Assembly: GCA_949282265.1 (NCBI GenBank)
Contig: CASDOZ010000010.1
Coordinates: 1 to 64,000, forward strand
Direction of reading: 5' to 3'
Length of the DNA: 64,000 nt
From: an uncultured Bacteroidales bacterium
Lineage (GTDB): Bacteria; Bacteroidota; Bacteroidia; Bacteroidales; Paludibacteraceae
Shown: piece by piece, positions 27,309 through 34,176 of the stretch
How the letters are laid out: every line of letters begins with the position of its first letter
Position numbering within the stretch: the stretch's first letter is position 1
Program-made: the position numbers and the translations under genes
The notes under the pieces: generated by a model
What the model saw: the letters and a program-made list of their open reading frames with translations, nothing else
What the model was told of the DNA's origin: nothing
Databases searched by the model: none

Positions 27309-28055
27309 TCAATCAATCAACTTCAACGCTTGTTCCATATCAGCCGGGGTATCAATACCGATACTGCAAGCCGTCGAAATGCCGACTTTGATTTTGTATC
27401 CGTTCTCAATCCAACGCAATTGCTCCAGCGATTCCGCCAACTCCAACGGCGATTGAGGCAAGCGGGTTATCTCCTCCAAAATATCAGCCCGATATGCGTA
27501 CATGCCTATATGGTGGTAATACTGATGCGACTGCAACCATTCCATATGGTGTAGCCCGCGCTTGTATGGAATAATGGAACGGCTGAAATATATTGCCTCA
27601 TGGCTTTTTTCGGAAAAAATAATTTTGGGCGTATTAGGGTCGAATAATTCATCAAACGTACTGTCCGGGCCATAAGGCTTGGCCAATGTCGCAATTTGCG
27701 TGTCGCCTGTGTCAAAACAAGCCTTAATGGCTTCGATTTGTTCCGGCTGTATAAAAGGTTCATCTCCTTGGATATTAATAATGACATCGGCTTCATAGCC
27801 GCATTTCCGGTATGCTTCATAACAGCGGTCGGTGCCGCTGCGGTGCTTGTCCGATGTCATAATGGCTTGCCCGCCAAAAGCAGCCACAGCATCGGCTATG
27901 CGTTGGTCGTCCGTGGCGACACAAACCTTGTCCAAAGCCTTTCCCACCTGTTCATAAACCCGCTGTATCATGGGTTTTCCTTTCATGTCGGCCAGAGGCT
28001 TGCCCGGGAAACGCGTCGAAGCATAACGCGCCGGTATGATTCCAATAAAATTCAT
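27309..28055 (-). CDS. kdsB: 3-deoxy-manno-octulosonate cytidylyltransferase
   Basis: A 248-residue cytoplasmic enzyme that makes CMP-Kdo from CTP and Kdo for the lipopolysaccharide inner core. It shows the nucleotidyltransferase opening IGIIPARYASTRFPGKPLADM, the VATDD motif, INIQGDEPFI with the metal-binding acid, and RSIIPY. Full length. Its start overlaps the nnrD stop in ATGA, so it is translated from the same mRNA as nnrD. Confidence 0.96.
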   Translation of the reverse strand: MNFIGIIPARYASTRFPGKPLADMKGKPMIQRVYEQVGKALDKVCVATDDQRIADAVAAFGGQAIMTSDKHRSGTDRCYEAYRKCGYEADVIINIQGDEPFIQPEQIEAIKACFDTGDTQIATLAKPYGPDSTFDELFDPNTPKIIFSEKSHEAIYFSRSIIPYKRGLHHMEWLQSHQYYHHIGMYAYRADILEEITRLPQSPLELAESLEQLRWIENGYKIKVGISTACSIGIDTPADMEQALKLID

Positions 28056-28900
28056 GATTCCTGTATATTTAGTTGTTGTATGATGTCTGAAGCAATCAGT
28101 GCTTCCTGCTTTTTGTACTTGAGCACTGCATCGCCGGCTTTCCCGTGCATGAAAACACCTTTTATGGCTGCCTCCTCCGGCGAATACCCCTGCGCAAGCA
28201 AACCACCGATGATTCCGGCCAACACATCCCCGCTGCCAGCCGTCGCCATTCCCGGATTGCCGGTTGTATTTTTATATAATTTACCCGATGGAACGGCAAC
28301 CAATGTTCCGACTCCTTTCAGCAGAATTACAAGTCCGTATTTCGCAGAAGCAGCCCGCAAAGTGCGTATGCGCTCGTCCGGCTCTCTGGCAGTCCCGAAC
28401 AGCCGCTCAAATTCCTTGACATGCGGTGTCAATATTGACCCTTCCGGAAGCAGGTCCAACCAGTCCTTATGCGCGGAAATCAAGTTCAGGGCATCGGCGT
28501 CCACAACGCATGGCATGTGCAAACGCGGAAGCAGGTCGGACAACATGTGTGCCGTCTGTTCATGCGTGCCGATTCCCGGCCCGATGACTAATGTGGCGTA
28601 TCTGCCAATGTCGCCGACGGCAGAAATCCGCCCTTCCTCCACATCCGAGACAAACATGGCTTCCGGCAGCGCCGTCTGCAAAATAATCCGGTTGCAAGCA
28701 GGACCATGCACAGTAACCATGCCGCAACCGCTACGCAACGCAGCATGTGCCGCCAGCAACGATGCGCCGGCCATACCCTTGCTTCCGGCAACAACCAGCA
28801 GGTGGCCGAACGTCCCTTTATGGGCGTTGAGCGGGCGCGCCTTATCGGGCAATATGCCTTCATTCAAAAAAATACAGTCTCTTTCAGCCGTATATATCAT
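28052..28900 (-). CDS. nnrD: ADP-dependent NAD(P)H-hydrate dehydratase, standalone
   Basis: A 282-residue repair enzyme converting damaged (S)-NAD(P)H hydrate back to NAD(P)H with ADP. It has the ribokinase-like fold: HLLVVAGSKGMAGASLLAA, VIGPGIG, ILTPHVKEFERL and the catalytic GNPGMATAGSGDVLAG. In many bacteria, including Bacteroides, NnrD is fused behind the NnrE epimerase; this one has no N-terminal YjeF_N domain, so an epimerase must be elsewhere or missing. Co-transcribed with kdsB. Confidence 0.92.
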   Translation of the reverse strand: MIYTAERDCIFLNEGILPDKARPLNAHKGTFGHLLVVAGSKGMAGASLLAAHAALRSGCGMVTVHGPACNRIILQTALPEAMFVSDVEEGRISAVGDIGRYATLVIGPGIGTHEQTAHMLSDLLPRLHMPCVVDADALNLISAHKDWLDLLPEGSILTPHVKEFERLFGTAREPDERIRTLRAASAKYGLVILLKGVGTLVAVPSGKLYKNTTGNPGMATAGSGDVLAGIIGGLLAQGYSPEEAAIKGVFMHGKAGDAVLKYKKQEALIASDIIQQLNIQES

Positions 28901-28977: not shown

Positions 28978-29093
28978 AAAAAGCATTACCATTAATATCT
29001 GCCAACAACAAATATTCGAAACTTGTAAAAAAACAAAAAATCACCGTATTACTGTACAAAATCCGTATCTTTGTTGCTGGTATAATGCTTTTT
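28978..29093. repeat. 11-bp inverted repeat in the divergent nnrD / Fe-S protein intergenic region
   Basis: AAAAAGCATTA (28978-28988) and TAATGCTTTTT (29083-29093) are perfect inverted copies 94 bp apart. They flank the Fe-S gene promoter and lie just upstream of the divergent nnrD promoter. They may be operator half-sites or chance in AT-rich DNA. Confidence 0.35.
29066..29073 (+). promoter_or_regulatory. Promoter -7 box of the Fe-S/reductase operon
   Basis: TATCTTTG, with a leader of about 60 nt before the ATG at 29140. Confidence 0.55.
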
Positions 29094-29139: not shown

Positions 29140-30639
29140 ATGTTGCGAAAAATCAGAAGGACGCTCGCTGTATTGTCTATTGCGTTGCTCACCTTGTTGT
29201 TCCTTGATTTTACGGGAACATTGCATGTTTGGTTCGGCTGGTTGGCCGACATACAGTTCGTACCGGCCGTTTTGGCGCTGAATGCGGCTGTTATCGTCGG
29301 ACTGCTTGTCCTAACATTGCTTTTTGGACGCGTATATTGCTCCGTTATTTGCCCGTTGGGCATATTCCAGGACATTATTTCGTATGTCAGCGGCTTGCGC
29401 CGCCGCAAACGGCACCGTTTCTCCTACTCTCCTGCCATAAATTGGCTGCGCTATATTTTCCTTGCCTTGTTCATAGTCGCCTTGGCGGCCGGCTTCGCAT
29501 CATTTGCATCCCTGATTGACCCATACGCGGCATACGGGCGCATGGCCTCCCATTTACTGGCACCGGTTTACCGTTGGGGAAATAATTTATTGGCCGGCAT
29601 GGCCGAAAAACTTGACAGCTATGCTTTTTACAATACGGAAATATGGCTGAAAAGTTTGCCTGTGTTGATAGTCGCCATTGCAACCTTGGTTGTACTATGC
29701 GTATTGGCATGGAGGAACGGCCGCACTTATTGCAATACGGTTTGTCCTGTGGGCACAGTATTGGGCTTTATATCACGCTATTCCCTGTTCCGTCCGGTCA
29801 TCGACACGGAAAAATGTACACACTGCCATCTGTGTTCACGGACGTGCAAAGCATCGTGCATAGATTCGGAACACACACAAATCGATTATTCACGGTGCGT
29901 AGCATGCATGGATTGCTTGGACACATGCCGCCAAAAAGCGATTACATATCGGAGCCGTTTCCGAATGGGAAAAGCACATGCAACAGAAACGACAAGCGCT
30001 GCACAACCGGACAAAGAACGCCGCCGGTTCTTGTCCACAACGGTCCTGCTTGCAACTTCTGCCGTCCTGAAAGCACAGGAAAAAAAAGTGGACGGCGGAC
30101 TGGCCGTAATTGAGGACAAAAAAATTCCGGCACGTGCCACACGCCTGACACCGCCCGGCTCATTGGATACACAGCATTTTGCACAACATTGCATAGCATG
30201 TCAGTTATGCGTTTCCGCTTGTCCGAACCAAGTGTTGCGGCCCTCGTCCGATTTACGCACATTCATGCAGCCGGAAATGTCCTACGAACGCGGTTATTGC
30301 CGTCCCGAATGTACAGAATGTTCTAAAGTATGTCCGGCCGGTGCCATTCTCCCGATTACACCAGCAGAGAAATCGGCCATCCAAATCGGACACGCCGTCT
30401 GGATTGCCAATAATTGCGTAGTGCTGACAGATGGCGTGGCGTGCGGTAATTGCGCCCGTCATTGTCCGACCGGCGCCATCAGCATGCTGCCTTACGTGGC
30501 GGAAGATGCATCCTCTCCGAAAATTCCCGTGGTAAATACGGAACGGTGCATCGGTTGCGGTGCGTGCGAGAATTTATGTCCGGCACGGCCGTTCAGTGCC
30601 ATTTATGTGGAAGGGCACGAAGTGCACAGGACAATATAA
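29140..30639 (+). CDS. NapH-like membrane ferredoxin fused to a NapG-like Tat-type ferredoxin
   Basis: 499 residues in two parts. Residues 1-275 look like NapH: about four helices, CysPro motifs (C67..C71P, C198..C202P) and two 4Fe-4S motifs (C226-C236, C253-C263). Then RRRFL at 294-298 and a short hydrophobic stretch (299-310, ending LKA) form a twin-arginine signal in mid-protein. Residues 340-490 look like NapG, with four more cysteine clusters (C351-C361, C387-C398, C426-C442, C470-C480). In nitrate-reductase operons NapH and NapG are separate, and NapG is Tat-exported. Likely role: passing quinol electrons to a periplasmic acceptor, perhaps the reductase encoded next. No nitrate reductase is seen. 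Confidence 0.8.
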   Translation: MLRKIRRTLAVLSIALLTLLFLDFTGTLHVWFGWLADIQFVPAVLALNAAVIVGLLVLTLLFGRVYCSVICPLGIFQDIISYVSGLRRRKRHRFSYSPAINWLRYIFLALFIVALAAGFASFASLIDPYAAYGRMASHLLAPVYRWGNNLLAGMAEKLDSYAFYNTEIWLKSLPVLIVAIATLVVLCVLAWRNGRTYCNTVCPVGTVLGFISRYSLFRPVIDTEKCTHCHLCSRTCKASCIDSEHTQIDYSRCVACMDCLDTCRQKAITYRSRFRMGKAHATETTSAAQPDKERRRFLSTTVLLATSAVLKAQEKKVDGGLAVIEDKKIPARATRLTPPGSLDTQHFAQHCIACQLCVSACPNQVLRPSSDLRTFMQPEMSYERGYCRPECTECSKVCPAGAILPITPAEKSAIQIGHAVWIANNCVVLTDGVACGNCARHCPTGAISMLPYVAEDASSPKIPVVNTERCIGCGACENLCPARPFSAIYVEGHEVHRTI

Positions 30640-30664
30640 TTTCAACAATAAAAACGGAAACATT

Positions 30665-32050
30665 ATGAGCGAAGAACATAACAAAGACATGAACCGGCGT
30701 GATTTCCTGAAAATCGTAGGCATTAGCGCAGCGACCAGCACATCGCTATTTTACGGCTGTAACGGGAAAAACGGGAATACAACGGATGCTGCCGCACAAA
30801 CAGCCGTGCCGGCTGACAAAATGACTTTCCGCACATCCAAACGGGGCGACCGCGTTTCATTGTTGGGCTACGGCTGTATGCGTTGGCCGACCATGCCGGC
30901 TGCCGATGCTTCGGGCAATGTCATCGACCAGGACAAAGTAAACCGTCTGGTGGATTATGCCATTGCACACGGCGTGAACTATTTCGACACATCGCCGGTG
31001 TACGTACAAGGATTCTCGGAGAAATCGACAGGACTTGCCTTGAAACGCCACCCGCGCGAAAAACTTTTCATTGCGACCAAGCTGTCCAACTTCCAGAACA
31101 GCACGCGGAGCAATTCCATGGCCATGTATGAACAGTCGTTCAAGGACCTGCAAGTCGATTACATCGATTATTACCTGCTGCACTCAGTCGGGAACGGAGG
31201 CATGGAAACCTTCCGAGCACGCTACATCGACAACGGCATGTTAGACTTCCTGCTGGAAGAACGCGCAAAAGGACGCATCCGCAATTTGGGCTTCTCGTTC
31301 CACGGCACAGTCGATGTGTTCGACCAAGTTCTGGCTTTGGATGATTACGTGCATTGGGATTTCGTGCAAATCCAAATGAACTATGTGGACTGGCGCCATG
31401 CTTCGGGCCGCAACGTAAATGCGGAATATTTGTACGGTGAATTAGTGAAACGTGGCATTCCGGCCGTCATCATGGAGCCCTTGCTGGGCGGACGTTTGTC
31501 CAACGTGCCGGAACATATCATGCTGCGCCTAAAACAGCAGCGGCCGCAAGACAGCGTGGCATCGTGGGCATTCCGGTTCGCAGGTTCATATCCGAACGTA
31601 CTGACCGTATTGAGCGGAATGACCTACATGGAACATCTGCAAGATAACATCCGCACATATTCGCCCTTGCAGCCACTGACGGATGAAGAAAAAATCTTTC
31701 TGGAAGAAACGGCACAGCTAATGATAAAATACCCGACAATCCCGTGCAACGAATGCCAGTATTGTATGCCATGCCCTTACGGCATAGACATTCCGTCCAT
31801 TTTAGTGCATTACAACAAATGTGTAAATGAAGGCAGTATCCCGCGTAGCCGCCAGGATGAGAACTACCGGAAAGCCCGCCGCGCCTATCTGGTCGGCTAT
31901 GACCGGAGCGTGCCCAAATTGCGGCAGGCAAACCATTGTATCGGTTGCGGACAATGTTCGCCGCATTGCCCGCAAAGCATCGATATTCCGAAAGAACTGC
32001 ACCGCATCGACCATTTTGTGGAACAACTGAAACAAGGCACACTGCCATGA
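30665..32050 (+). CDS. Exported aldo/keto reductase with C-terminal ferredoxin clusters
   Basis: 461 residues from ATG 30665. The N terminus is a twin-arginine signal, MNRRDFLKIVGISAATSTS, ending in a possible lipobox LFYGC (Cys32), so a Tat-exported lipoprotein is predicted. The aldo/keto reductase barrel follows, with the tetrad region GVNYFDTSPVY (Asp, Tyr), IATKLSN (Lys) and YYLLHSV (His). The C terminus has two 4Fe-4S motifs: CNECQYCMPCPYGIDIP and CIGCGQCSPHCPQSIDIP. Cytoplasmic relatives use NADPH; an exported one would need another donor, which fits the Fe-S membrane protein upstream. Substrate unknown. The stop overlaps the next gene in ATGA. Confidence 0.85.
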   Translation: MSEEHNKDMNRRDFLKIVGISAATSTSLFYGCNGKNGNTTDAAAQTAVPADKMTFRTSKRGDRVSLLGYGCMRWPTMPAADASGNVIDQDKVNRLVDYAIAHGVNYFDTSPVYVQGFSEKSTGLALKRHPREKLFIATKLSNFQNSTRSNSMAMYEQSFKDLQVDYIDYYLLHSVGNGGMETFRARYIDNGMLDFLLEERAKGRIRNLGFSFHGTVDVFDQVLALDDYVHWDFVQIQMNYVDWRHASGRNVNAEYLYGELVKRGIPAVIMEPLLGGRLSNVPEHIMLRLKQQRPQDSVASWAFRFAGSYPNVLTVLSGMTYMEHLQDNIRTYSPLQPLTDEEKIFLEETAQLMIKYPTIPCNECQYCMPCPYGIDIPSILVHYNKCVNEGSIPRSRQDENYRKARRAYLVGYDRSVPKLRQANHCIGCGQCSPHCPQSIDIPKELHRIDHFVEQLKQGTLP

Positions 32051-32457
32051 ACGATTTGATCCAACGTTTGCACGAGGGCGGATATTCGTGCGTCATTTAC
32101 AACAAAGGCAAAACAGCCGCCTTTACCCGCCGCGGGGTAATAGATTTGTTTGAATTGCTGGCAAAAGAGCCGGACTTCCTGCGGGGAGCATCGGTTGCAG
32201 ACAAAGTTGTTGGAAAAGGAGCGGCGGCCTTGATGTTGCTGGGCGGCGTAAGCCGGTTGCACGCCAATGTCATTAGCACGCCGGCCTTGGAATTGCTGAA
32301 AAACAGTTGTTTGAAAGTAACTTACGGACAGTCAGTACCTCATGTGCAAAATAGGACAAAGACAGACTGGTGCCCGGTAGAGAAATTGTGCTACAACTTA
32401 CATACGCCGCAGGAAATGTTCGAAGCGATACGCACATTCTTGGATGCACAGAAATAA
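32047..32457 (+). CDS. DUF1893 domain protein
   Basis: A 136-residue cytoplasmic-looking protein of the DUF1893 family: MNDLIQRLHEGGYSCVIYNKG, FTRRGVIDLFELL, VADKVVGKGAAALMLLGGV and LHTPQEMFEAIRTFL. The fold is related to a cytidine-deaminase-like family by description only; the biochemical role is not known. It is coupled by a 4-bp overlap to the exported reductase, so it belongs to the same unit. The open frame extends upstream, but the ATGA start is clearly best. Confidence 0.82.
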   Translation: MNDLIQRLHEGGYSCVIYNKGKTAAFTRRGVIDLFELLAKEPDFLRGASVADKVVGKGAAALMLLGGVSRLHANVISTPALELLKNSCLKVTYGQSVPHVQNRTKTDWCPVEKLCYNLHTPQEMFEAIRTFLDAQK

Positions 32458-32551
32458 AGAAGCGGAAATGTCCTTACCCATATCCTATATCAAATTTTGT
32501 TTCTGTGTTGCCAGATATATAGAATTTGTAGAATCGTCCGGCAAAATTAGG

Positions 32552-32579
32552 TATATTTGAATAAGATTTATTACTTTTG
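32552..32579 (+). promoter_or_regulatory. Overlapping promoter boxes before the ECF-type gene
   Basis: Two -7 boxes, TATATTTG (32552-32559, with TTTG at 32525-32528, 23 bp upstream) and TACTTTTG (32572-32579), precede the gene. They suggest that the ECF/tat group can be transcribed apart from the reductase operon. Confidence 0.55.
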
Positions 32580-32638
32580 TTCGGTAAAAACCGGCTTCCG
32601 CACGGATATAACCAATAACGAATAATAAACAGACAAGT

Positions 32639-33148
32639 ATGGAAAATACTGTAAAATTATATGCATTGCCTTACAGCAAATCGAAAACCTATTGGCTGGC
32701 TGGCCTTTTTATAGCCGGCAATATCGTTTTGCCCCAACTGTGCCATTTGCTGCCGCAAGGTGGCCTCGTCTGGTTGCCAATCTATTTCTTCACTTTGGTT
32801 GGAGCCTACAAATACGGCTGGAAAGTCGGATTGCTGACAGCGATATTGTCACCGTTGCTAAACTCTTGGCTATTCGGGATGCCTCCCGTTGCGGCTTTGC
32901 CGGCCATTTTGTTCAAATCGTCCATATTGGCCATTGCTGCCGGCCTCGCCGCCGCATATTTTCAGAAAGTTGCTGTTTGGACACTTGCCATCGTCGTCCT
33001 GGGCAGCCAATTCATCGGTACAGCCTTTGAATGGCTCATCGTGCAAGATTTCCACATTGCCATACAGGATTTCCGTATCGGAATTCCGGGAATGCTCGTC
33101 CAAATTTTTGGAGGATATTTGCTAATTAACCATGTAATCAGAAAATAA
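32639..33148 (+). CDS. ECF-transporter S-component-like membrane protein
   Basis: A 169-residue hydrophobic protein with about five or six helices, resembling substrate-binding S components of energy-coupling-factor vitamin transporters ([23 protein letters not shown], then an [14 protein letters not shown] motif). No ECF ATPases or T subunit are nearby, so it would share a module or act alone. Substrate unknown and no riboswitch is visible in its short leader. tatA starts 4 bp after its stop. Confidence 0.65.
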
Positions 33149-33152
33149 GATT

Positions 33153-33374
33153 ATGACAACTTTATCGGCAATTCTATTATTCGGCAATATCGGAATTCAG
33201 GAAATTCTGGTCATTGCACTAATCATTTTGCTTTTATTCGGCGGGAAAAAGATTCCCGAACTGATGAAAGGACTTGGAAAAGGCGTTCGTAGCTTTAAAG
33301 ATGGAATGAAAGAAGTGGAAAAGGACATAAAATCCGATGAAAACGCTTCTTCCGACAAAACAAAGGAACAATAG
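33153..33374 (+). CDS. tatA: Twin-arginine translocase subunit TatA
   Basis: A 73-residue protein: one short N-terminal helix ([16 protein letters not shown]), then the [21 protein letters not shown] hinge and amphipathic helix, and an acidic/lysine tail. This is a typical TatA that forms the translocation pore for folded proteins. No TatB is seen, so a minimal TatA-TatC system is likely. tatC starts 4 bp after its stop. Confidence 0.95.
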
Positions 33375-33378
33375 ACCG

Positions 33379-34176
33379 ATGACCGAAGCGGAGCAAGGAA
33401 ATACCATGTCCTTTTGGGACCACTTGGATGTGTTGCGGGCTGCCCTATTAAAAATCCTGGCAGTTACACTGATTTTCGGCACACTTGCATTCGTGTTCAA
33501 AGACGTGCTTTTTTCTATCATTCTAGCTCCCAAAGAAAGCGATTTCATCGTTTATCGGCTCTTCCATTTTATCAGCACCCGACTTGGGACACAAGCATCG
33601 CCAGACAATTTCACCATCGATTTGATAAACACGGGATTGGCACGGCAGTTTATCATGCACATGAAAGCGGCCATGTATGCCGGTTTCCTTGTAGCTTCCC
33701 CATATGCCTTGTTCCAGTTGTTCCGTTTTATCTCGCCTGCGCTTTATATAAATGAACGCAAATACGTCGTTCGGGTTGCCGGTAGCGGTTACCTTATGTT
33801 CATGTTAGGTGTCTTATTTTGTTATTTCCTGCTATTCCCGCTGACATTCCGTTTTTTAGGGACATATCAGGTAAGCGGAGAAGTGCAAAACCTGATTTCT
33901 CTCGATTCATATATGGGAACCTTGATTACAATGAGCCTCCTAATGGGAGCCGTGTTTGAGATTCCTGTCCTTTGCTGGCTGTTCGCCAAATTGGGTTTCC
34001 TGAAAGTTACATTCATGCGCCGCTACCGCAAGCACGCCATTGTCGCTATTCTGGTTCTGGCGGCCGTAATCACGCCTACTGCCGACATTTTCACCCTTTC
34101 GCTGGTTTCGTTGCCCATGTGGTTACTGTATGAGCTGAGCATTCTGATTGTAAAACGTACGGAGATAAAGAAGTAA
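33379..34176 (+). CDS. tatC: Twin-arginine translocase subunit TatC
   Basis: A 265-residue six-helix membrane protein that recognises the RR signal. It starts near MSFWDHLDVLRAALLKI (family: F-H-EL-R) and contains FLGTYQVSGEVQNLISLDSY and the C-terminal RRYRKHAIVAILVLAAVITPT with TatC's conserved pattern. An upstream start at 33337 would overlap tatA. The two likely Tat substrates within the window, the exported aldo/keto reductase and the Fe-S fusion protein, lie 1-4 kb upstream on the same strand. Confidence 0.94.
   Translation: MTEAEQGNTMSFWDHLDVLRAALLKILAVTLIFGTLAFVFKDVLFSIILAPKESDFIVYRLFHFISTRLGTQASPDNFTIDLINTGLARQFIMHMKAAMYAGFLVASPYALFQLFRFISPALYINERKYVVRVAGSGYLMFMLGVLFCYFLLFPLTFRFLGTYQVSGEVQNLISLDSYMGTLITMSLLMGAVFEIPVLCWLFAKLGFLKVTFMRRYRKHAIVAILVLAAVITPTADIFTLSLVSLPMWLLYELSILIVKRTEIKK

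Follow-up and report, generated by a model that had tools for sequence, protein, structure and literature searches.

What could an aldo/keto reductase (AKR) do outside the cytoplasm, and where would its electrons come from? Textbooks present AKRs as NAD(P)H enzymes of the cytoplasm. The 64,000-nucleotide stretch analyzed here (the window, part of contig C10 in the 2.47-Mb, 28-contig genome of an uncultured Bacteroidales bacterium) raises this question between 29 and 34 kb, where an operon encodes a NapH-NapG fusion polyferredoxin (NapHG), an AKR with iron-sulfur (Fe-S) motifs and a twin-arginine translocation (Tat)-type export signal, and a DUF1893 protein. The original prediction was that the Fe-S membrane protein could supply the exported AKR, and it left to a search whether the same genes recur. 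We found that NapHG and an exported-type Fe-S AKR, frequently joined by DUF1893, are a conserved set in Bacteroidales, as judged by gene neighborhoods. In many of these bacteria the set seems to wire the AKR to a membrane electron carrier for a redox job outside the cytoplasm.

We assembled 167 exported-type AKR loci and counted neighbors within 8 kb. The family set (150 genomes) gave 57 AKR matches at an E of ≤2.4e-84 in 56 genomes; from the 56 neighborhoods besides the window's own, we left out a short fragment (L086), leaving 55 loci. The named-genome set held the best 80 of at least 587 AKR matches, and the order set held 32 loci, with two partial matches of G541 left out. Named isolates that have the NapHG-AKR pair include Phocaeicola faecalis (L088), Dysgonomonas sp. 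(L093), and Prevotella sp. ne3005 (L160). We found NapHG near 154 of the 167 AKR genes (49/55 in the family, 76/80 in named genomes, and 29/32 in the order). In contrast, NapHG was near none of eight short, mostly signal-less AKR paralogues. These were eight of the nine short matches from an order-level profile draw, in which AKR was found in 37 of 198 genomes at an E of 1e-50, short paralogues included. A phylum-wide draw with the AKR and DUF1893 profiles returned the window's own genome only (1/247 each), and this draw seems poor in Bacteroidales, with two others of the order among the rows listed. Among same-strand NapHG/AKR pairs, 130 of 137 were separated by a gap of −30 to 200 bp. Gene order varied, with NapHG on either side of AKR, DUF1893 ahead of NapHG in some loci, and tat genes on either side. 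Thus, rearrangement has not broken the linkage.

Genomes with an unlinked AKR were also informative. All seven that we searched by profile (six family genomes and G413 of the order) have a NapHG elsewhere, six at AKR-type scores of 734 to 825 bits and the seventh, in G099, at 563 bits. L209 and L212 each hold an AKR with no NapHG nearby, but in both cases the genome has another, linked copy. In genomes with several AKR copies, NapHG was near both copies in G065, G498, and G425, two of three in G573, and one of two in G471. TatC was present in 54 of the 56 family genomes with an AKR and in 48 of the 94 without one (Fisher P = 6e-10, uncorrected for kinship). A contig titled Candidatus Kapaibacterium (L138) carries an AKR 59% identical to that of the window, by transfer or contamination.

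The NapHG phylogeny agreed with this pairing. We built a FastTree tree from 81 of 178 NapHG rows: every one of the 30 non-AKR rows, the window, and a subset of 50 from the remaining 147 AKR-adjacent rows. One 56-row clade with a support of 100 comprised 50 AKR-adjacent rows and 6 rows whose AKR lies elsewhere. All 20 DUF362-adjacent rows fell outside it. So did two exceptions: L218, which is divergent and AKR-adjacent, and L249, the copy from G099. Together with synteny and the pairing of paralogues, the tree gives the NapHG-AKR link good support. A lack of co-occurrence would have refuted the original reading, but the genes do co-occur; DUF1893 was near 70 of the 167 loci. The adjoining tatAC, also pointed out originally, is a frequent neighbor and not a fixed member, because tatC was near only 49 loci. 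Other recurrent neighbors were an energy-coupling factor (ECF) S-component-like gene (ECF-S; 36 loci), a BtuB-like receptor (26), a flavodoxin (14), and a DUF362 lipoprotein (9).

DUF362 marks a different partner of NapHG. Among 13 AKR-negative family genomes that we picked, four had a lower-scoring NapHG (495 to 591 bits), one had fragments, and eight had none at an E of 1e-30. Two of the four NapHGs adjoin a Tat-type DUF362 gene, and one of these also adjoins tatC. In 20 phylum loci with NapHG and without AKR (from 27 other genomes with NapHG), a Tat-signal DUF362 gene was adjacent in 19; near these 20 loci, DUF1893 and tatC were found in none, and ECF-S and the receptor in one each. From these predicted gene pairs, AKR and DUF362 are exchangeable partners on the NapHG scaffold. 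DUF362 belongs to the same Pfam clan as LarA (PMC11770544), and our search of the window's genome found no DUF362. The NapHG-DUF362 loci without AKR (L167 to L186, L247, and L250) make up a second NapHG module. In one of them (L167:10072-16980), a cobalamin biosynthesis gene with CbiJ and CbiD domains (Pfam) is a few genes away from an ECF-S-like gene, a phosphoribosyltransferase gene, a Tat-type DUF362 gene, and NapHG.

We examined the NapHG protein for the features of such fusions. Its N-terminal half matches NapH and its C-terminal half matches NapG, both far under the NCBIfam cutoffs (napH_, 80 bits against 213; NapG PRK09476, 75 against 269; mauM_napG, 73 against 179). Hydropathy predicts four transmembrane helices (residues 8 to 26, 44 to 62, 108 to 126, and 172 to 190). 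The twin-arginine segment ERRRFLSTTVLLATSAVLKAQEKK comes after the fourth helix, ahead of a weakly hydrophobic segment and positive charges. The protein has two CxxxCP motifs and six 4Fe-4S cysteine motifs, two before ERRRFLSTTVLLATSAVLKAQEKK and four after it; the latter, predicted to be periplasmic, have cysteines invariant in the alignment (351 to 361, 387 to 398, 426 to 442, and 470 to 480). Among the 49 family sequences that we read, the window's included, 41 have RR and 8 have KR at this internal position. The fusion with an internal twin-arginine signal is therefore as predicted, and it belongs to a class already described (PMC5449189).

The AKR contains MNRRDFLKIVGISAATSTSLFYGC, with an MNRRDFLK motif and a cysteine at residue 32. 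It scores 124.8 bits for PF00248 (cutoff, 24), and Fer4_9 is also above its cutoff. The Asp-Tyr-Lys-His tetrad is intact in the alignment (D108, Y113, K139, and H173), and two 4Fe-4S motifs lie at residues 361 to 370 and 425 to 435, with eight cysteines invariant across the AKR alignment. We took the fold from a relative, the AKR-DUF1893 fusion of L126, whose AlphaFold model (mean predicted local distance difference test [pLDDT] score, 86.4; predicted template modeling score, 0.74) has the AKR barrel. The 50 Foldseek matches listed for it are ordinary AKRs, such as DepB and AKR11C1 among the best, and cover the AKR part only; several were solved with NADP or NAD. We abandoned naming a substrate from the nearest structure, since all 50 are only 18 to 24% identical and so say little about it.

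We judged export signals from sequence alone and left out the 10 of 167 loci without a called AKR start. RR is present in 152 of the remaining 157 exported-type AKRs (52/52 in the family, 72/75 in named genomes, and 28/30 in the order), and the other five carry RK or GR at that place. A cysteine follows 12 to 32 residues past RR in 147 of the 152 (52 family, 71 named, and 24 order). Loss of these signals in homologues would have spoken against export; they are kept in both AKR and NapHG, and the predicted RR signals of the two families are not due to chance. The double ferredoxin motif and Tat signal described for the AKR were confirmed. The lipobox is atypical in the window (FYGC), but all 52 family AKRs have the cysteine at the distance given above. 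On contig C11 (L238:133-1539), the genome encodes another Tat-type protein, which starts MGQTKITRRDFLKK and, judged from its sequence, seems to be an FAD-dependent oxidoreductase. This second substrate argues against a Tat system devoted to the module alone.

DUF1893 probably forms part of the exported complex. The window's protein scores 166.9 bits for PF08973 (cutoff, 27) and matches 1vk9 at an E of 2e-13; its predicted coupling to the AKR gene held. In ten loci, DUF1893 is fused to the C terminus of AKR (L050, L051, L052, L058, L064, L079, L126, L132, L147, and L202), as seen from lengths and shared ends (for L202, from length and match position only; for L050, also from Pfam). In five others (L080 to L084), it forms the C terminus of a DUF362 lipoprotein (shared ends; L081 also by Pfam). 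Some of these fusion loci are close kin. Because DUF1893 is fused to two different exported proteins, it most likely acts outside the cytoplasm. In L080 to L084, the DUF362-DUF1893 lipoprotein gene sits between a BtuB-like receptor gene and NapHG-AKR.

How might these parts work together? We infer both the supply of electrons from NapHG to AKR and its direction, and we put the chance at about even that NapHG feeds the exported Fe-S AKR in a periplasmic redox module of Bacteroidales as follows. NapHG would be inserted by Sec, and its ferredoxin part would then be passed through Tat. Its electrons would come from menaquinol or, via the two cytoplasmic clusters, from a cytoplasmic Fe-S donor, and would pass along the four clusters in the periplasm to reach the pair in AKR. 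The AKR would fold with its cofactors in the cytoplasm, exit by Tat, and be anchored as a lipoprotein. There, it would reduce a carbonyl-type substrate, most likely via a tightly held nicotinamide that the Fe-S chain re-reduces, directly or via an exported flavodoxin. DUF1893 would bind AKR and travel with it as a hitchhiker or fused domain. Hitchhiker export via Tat is known (PMC4273604).

We considered whether the AKR needs nicotinamide at all. S317, G318, M319, and N328 are invariant in 25 aligned AKRs, and the seven short paralogues that we aligned have them too. This SGM...N end lines up with the corresponding end of L-galactose dehydrogenase, and the motif is common to NAD(P)-dependent AKRs and the exported AKR. 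The exported AKR may carry a bound nicotinamide, since the tetrad and this motif are kept, and this is at least as likely as doing without. The assumption that an AKR has to forgo nicotinamide once exported is thus unsupported.

Several points weigh against the proposed electron supply to AKR. Menaquinol (about −74 mV) is poorly placed to reduce an ordinary carbonyl (about −200 mV), an uphill step, although the potential could be lifted if an Fe-S donor in the cytoplasm supplied the electrons. Nicotinamide-free wiring is unproved because the usual nucleotide-binding motif is kept, and we know of no description of transfer from Fe-S clusters to nicotinamide without flavin. NapHG is absent within 8 kb of 13 of the 167 loci, and the counts for DUF1893, the receptor, ECF-S, DUF362, flavodoxin, and tatC range only from 9 to 70. 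The 167 loci include repeats of one genome (the NapHGs of L162 and L210 are identical), and the sets may share genomes. Of the seven short paralogues whose start was called, one (L223) has RR, and no NapHG lies near it. An RRxF[L/I/M]K pattern, which misses NapHG itself, is not enriched in DNA of the window's genome (14 matches against 38 in a reversed control); only in AKR and L238 was the match close to the start of a long open reading frame. We found no export signal in the 12 standalone DUF1893 N termini inspected, which makes co-export with AKR the simplest reading. TonB receptors are common in Bacteroidota, so closeness of a receptor is by itself weak evidence.

The main rival is the opposite direction, which we regard as a real but distinctly less probable alternative to outward reduction. 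The exported AKR would be a periplasmic dehydrogenase with bound NAD(P), acting for example on an aldose to give a lactone or an alcohol to give a carbonyl, and NapHG would pass electrons to menaquinone for fumarate respiration. Fe-S chains are reversible in principle, and, by midpoint potentials, menaquinone is a downhill acceptor for electrons from an alcohol or aldose. L-galactose dehydrogenase (8scc) is also the best profile match to the window AKR among solved structures, with several further sugar-oxidizing AKRs among the matches. However, other AKRs head the list of fold matches, at the low identities given above, and characterized NapGH relatives oxidize quinol (PMC5449189). We ranked the reductive direction first.

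Less probable again, and in our view rather unlikely, is an AKR that stands alone in the periplasm, coupling an oxidation to a reduction on permanently bound NAD(P)(H), with structural Fe-S clusters and a NapHG link that serves something else. Glucose-fructose oxidoreductase couples the two in this way with tightly bound NADP and is not known to have Fe-S clusters or a quinone link. This enzyme is periplasmic and exported via Tat (PMC4628093), and the intact tetrad and nucleotide motif of AKR are consistent with this. The pairing with NapHG, the AKR-type NapHG clade, and the eight invariant cysteines argue against it. Redox repair or homeostasis of exported proteins or cofactors, with AKR or DUF362 as interchangeable end enzymes, we hold to be improbable. 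MsrPQ repairs methionine sulfoxide, and the exchange of AKR and DUF362 on one scaffold would suit a similar role. Tooke et al. (PMC5449189) also treat MsrPQ, like NapGH, as a split equivalent of such fusions. The recurrent receptor and ECF-S neighbors suggest instead a small imported molecule. Most loci lack tatAC, ECF-S, and the receptor, as unrelated genes that are neighbors by chance would, but order-wide NapHG-AKR synteny, the fusions, and the shared tree signal contradict this for NapHG, AKR, and DUF1893 and make it very improbable.

The recurrence of ECF-S and the BtuB-like receptor suggests that the module's substrate is a vitamin-like small molecule. The window's ECF-S-like protein scores 23.4 bits for PF12822, under the cutoff of 30.7, and 23 of 27 aligned sequences match at an E of 0.01; a sequence profile gave no PDB match at an E of 10. 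In its AlphaFold2 model (pLDDT, 82.7), we found the S-component fold: ECF transporter chains (RibU, FolT, ThiT, PanT, and others) fill the first 15 places among its Foldseek matches, with probabilities of 0.85 to 1.00 and none with an E of <0.001. One match, 4huq, is titled just "a transporter." The receptor in relatives resembles BtuB along its length but scores far under the cutoff of the vitamin B12 receptor model (150.9 of 599.7 bits), and siderophore and heme receptor models match it too. It lies directly beside the ECF-S gene (14 to 27 bp) in 8 of the 14 loci with both; the window operon has the ECF-S-like gene and no adjoining receptor. In the fuller loci, the receptor would bring substrate across the outer membrane and the ECF-S-like protein would take the product in. 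A specific version, reductive salvage of a vitamin-like compound in the periplasm with menaquinone-pool electrons delivered via NapHG in place of free NAD(P)H, is doubtful as it stands. Flavodoxin_4-type genes lie near the module in L037, L039, L071, L072, L084, L112, L120, L155, L187, L192, L193, L194, L211, and L215; most of the proteins start with an export-like signal (L120 does not), and L039 was confirmed by Pfam. A flavodoxin is a possible flavin step between the Fe-S clusters and a two-electron reaction.

The coordinates for NapHG, AKR, DUF1893, tatA, and tatC all hold by open reading frames and profile scores (Table 1). The tat genes do lie downstream of DUF1893, with the ECF-S-like gene, overlooked before, in between. 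The promoter-like element was assigned with what we take to be the Bacteroidota consensus and is weak evidence because the motif occurs 37 times on the plus strand of the window. Divergent genes just 5′ of the operon (27312 to 28900) encode an NAD(P)H-hydrate dehydratase and a cytidylyltransferase-family (kdsB-like) protein, possibly a coincidence.

Table 1. Features of the operon and its surroundings, in window coordinates
Feature	Coordinates	Strand	Remarks
Promoter-like element TANNTTTG (TATCTTTG)	29066..29073	+	5′ of operon; weak
NapH-NapG fusion polyferredoxin, internal twin-arginine motif	29140..30639	+	499 aa
AKR, Tat-type exported, putative lipoprotein, two C-terminal 4Fe-4S motifs	30665..32050	+	461 aa
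DUF1893 (TM1506 family), ATGA overlap with AKR stop	32047..32457	+	PF08973; fusions in relatives
ECF S-component-like membrane protein	32639..33148	+	PF12822 below cutoff; AlphaFold2 model; neighborhoods
tatA	33153..33374	+	Profile score above cutoff
tatC	33337..34176	+	Profile score above cutoff

What appears to be new here is the pairing of the known NapH-NapG class with an exported AKR. In the open-access PMC literature, we found no description of this pairing (search terms without a slash) and none of a role for DUF1893. SpiR, which we also considered, is a different enzyme type. Many Bacteroidales are gut bacteria, and a conserved exported Fe-S AKR branch, served by a membrane electron carrier of its own, would give the order an additional respiratory branch. 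NapHG would then emerge as a scaffold of general use to various periplasmic enzymes, and DUF1893 and DUF362, domains of unknown function, would gain a testable role. If true, the salvage reading would give the first AKR that we know to be wired to a respiratory chain and a scaffold that swaps AKR or DUF362 as its end enzyme.

Compared with known systems, the window NapHG is closest in design to the NapH-NapG fusions described as dual Sec/Tat membrane proteins by Tooke et al. in 2017 (PMC5449189). Both have four helices, cytoplasmic Fe-S motifs, four periplasmic 4Fe-4S motifs, and a twin-arginine motif preceding a weakly hydrophobic last segment. They differ in the cytoplasmic 4Fe-4S motifs (two in the window against three clusters predicted for the published example) and in the exported AKR partner; the word "aldo" is absent from the main text of that paper. 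The NapGH quinol dehydrogenase of periplasmic nitrate reductase is related to NapHG over both halves, whereas NapHG is one polypeptide with scores far under the family cutoffs, and our profile scan found no nitrate reductase gene among its scanned neighbors. The NapHG-DUF362 pairs have the same membrane part and an adjoining gene for an exported partner, which is DUF362 and not AKR. Glucose-fructose oxidoreductase is a precedent for Tat export of a nicotinamide enzyme, as proposed for AKR; it belongs to the Gfo/Idh/MocA family, whereas the window protein has the AKR barrel and not that fold. Fe-S aldo/keto reductases, which we take to be the COG1453 type, share with the window AKR the barrel, the tetrad, the SGM...N motif, and a C-terminal two-cluster domain. 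In contrast to them, the exported AKR has about 50 extra N-terminal residues with the Tat signal and cysteine, a NapHG partner, and, in some loci, a fused DUF1893.

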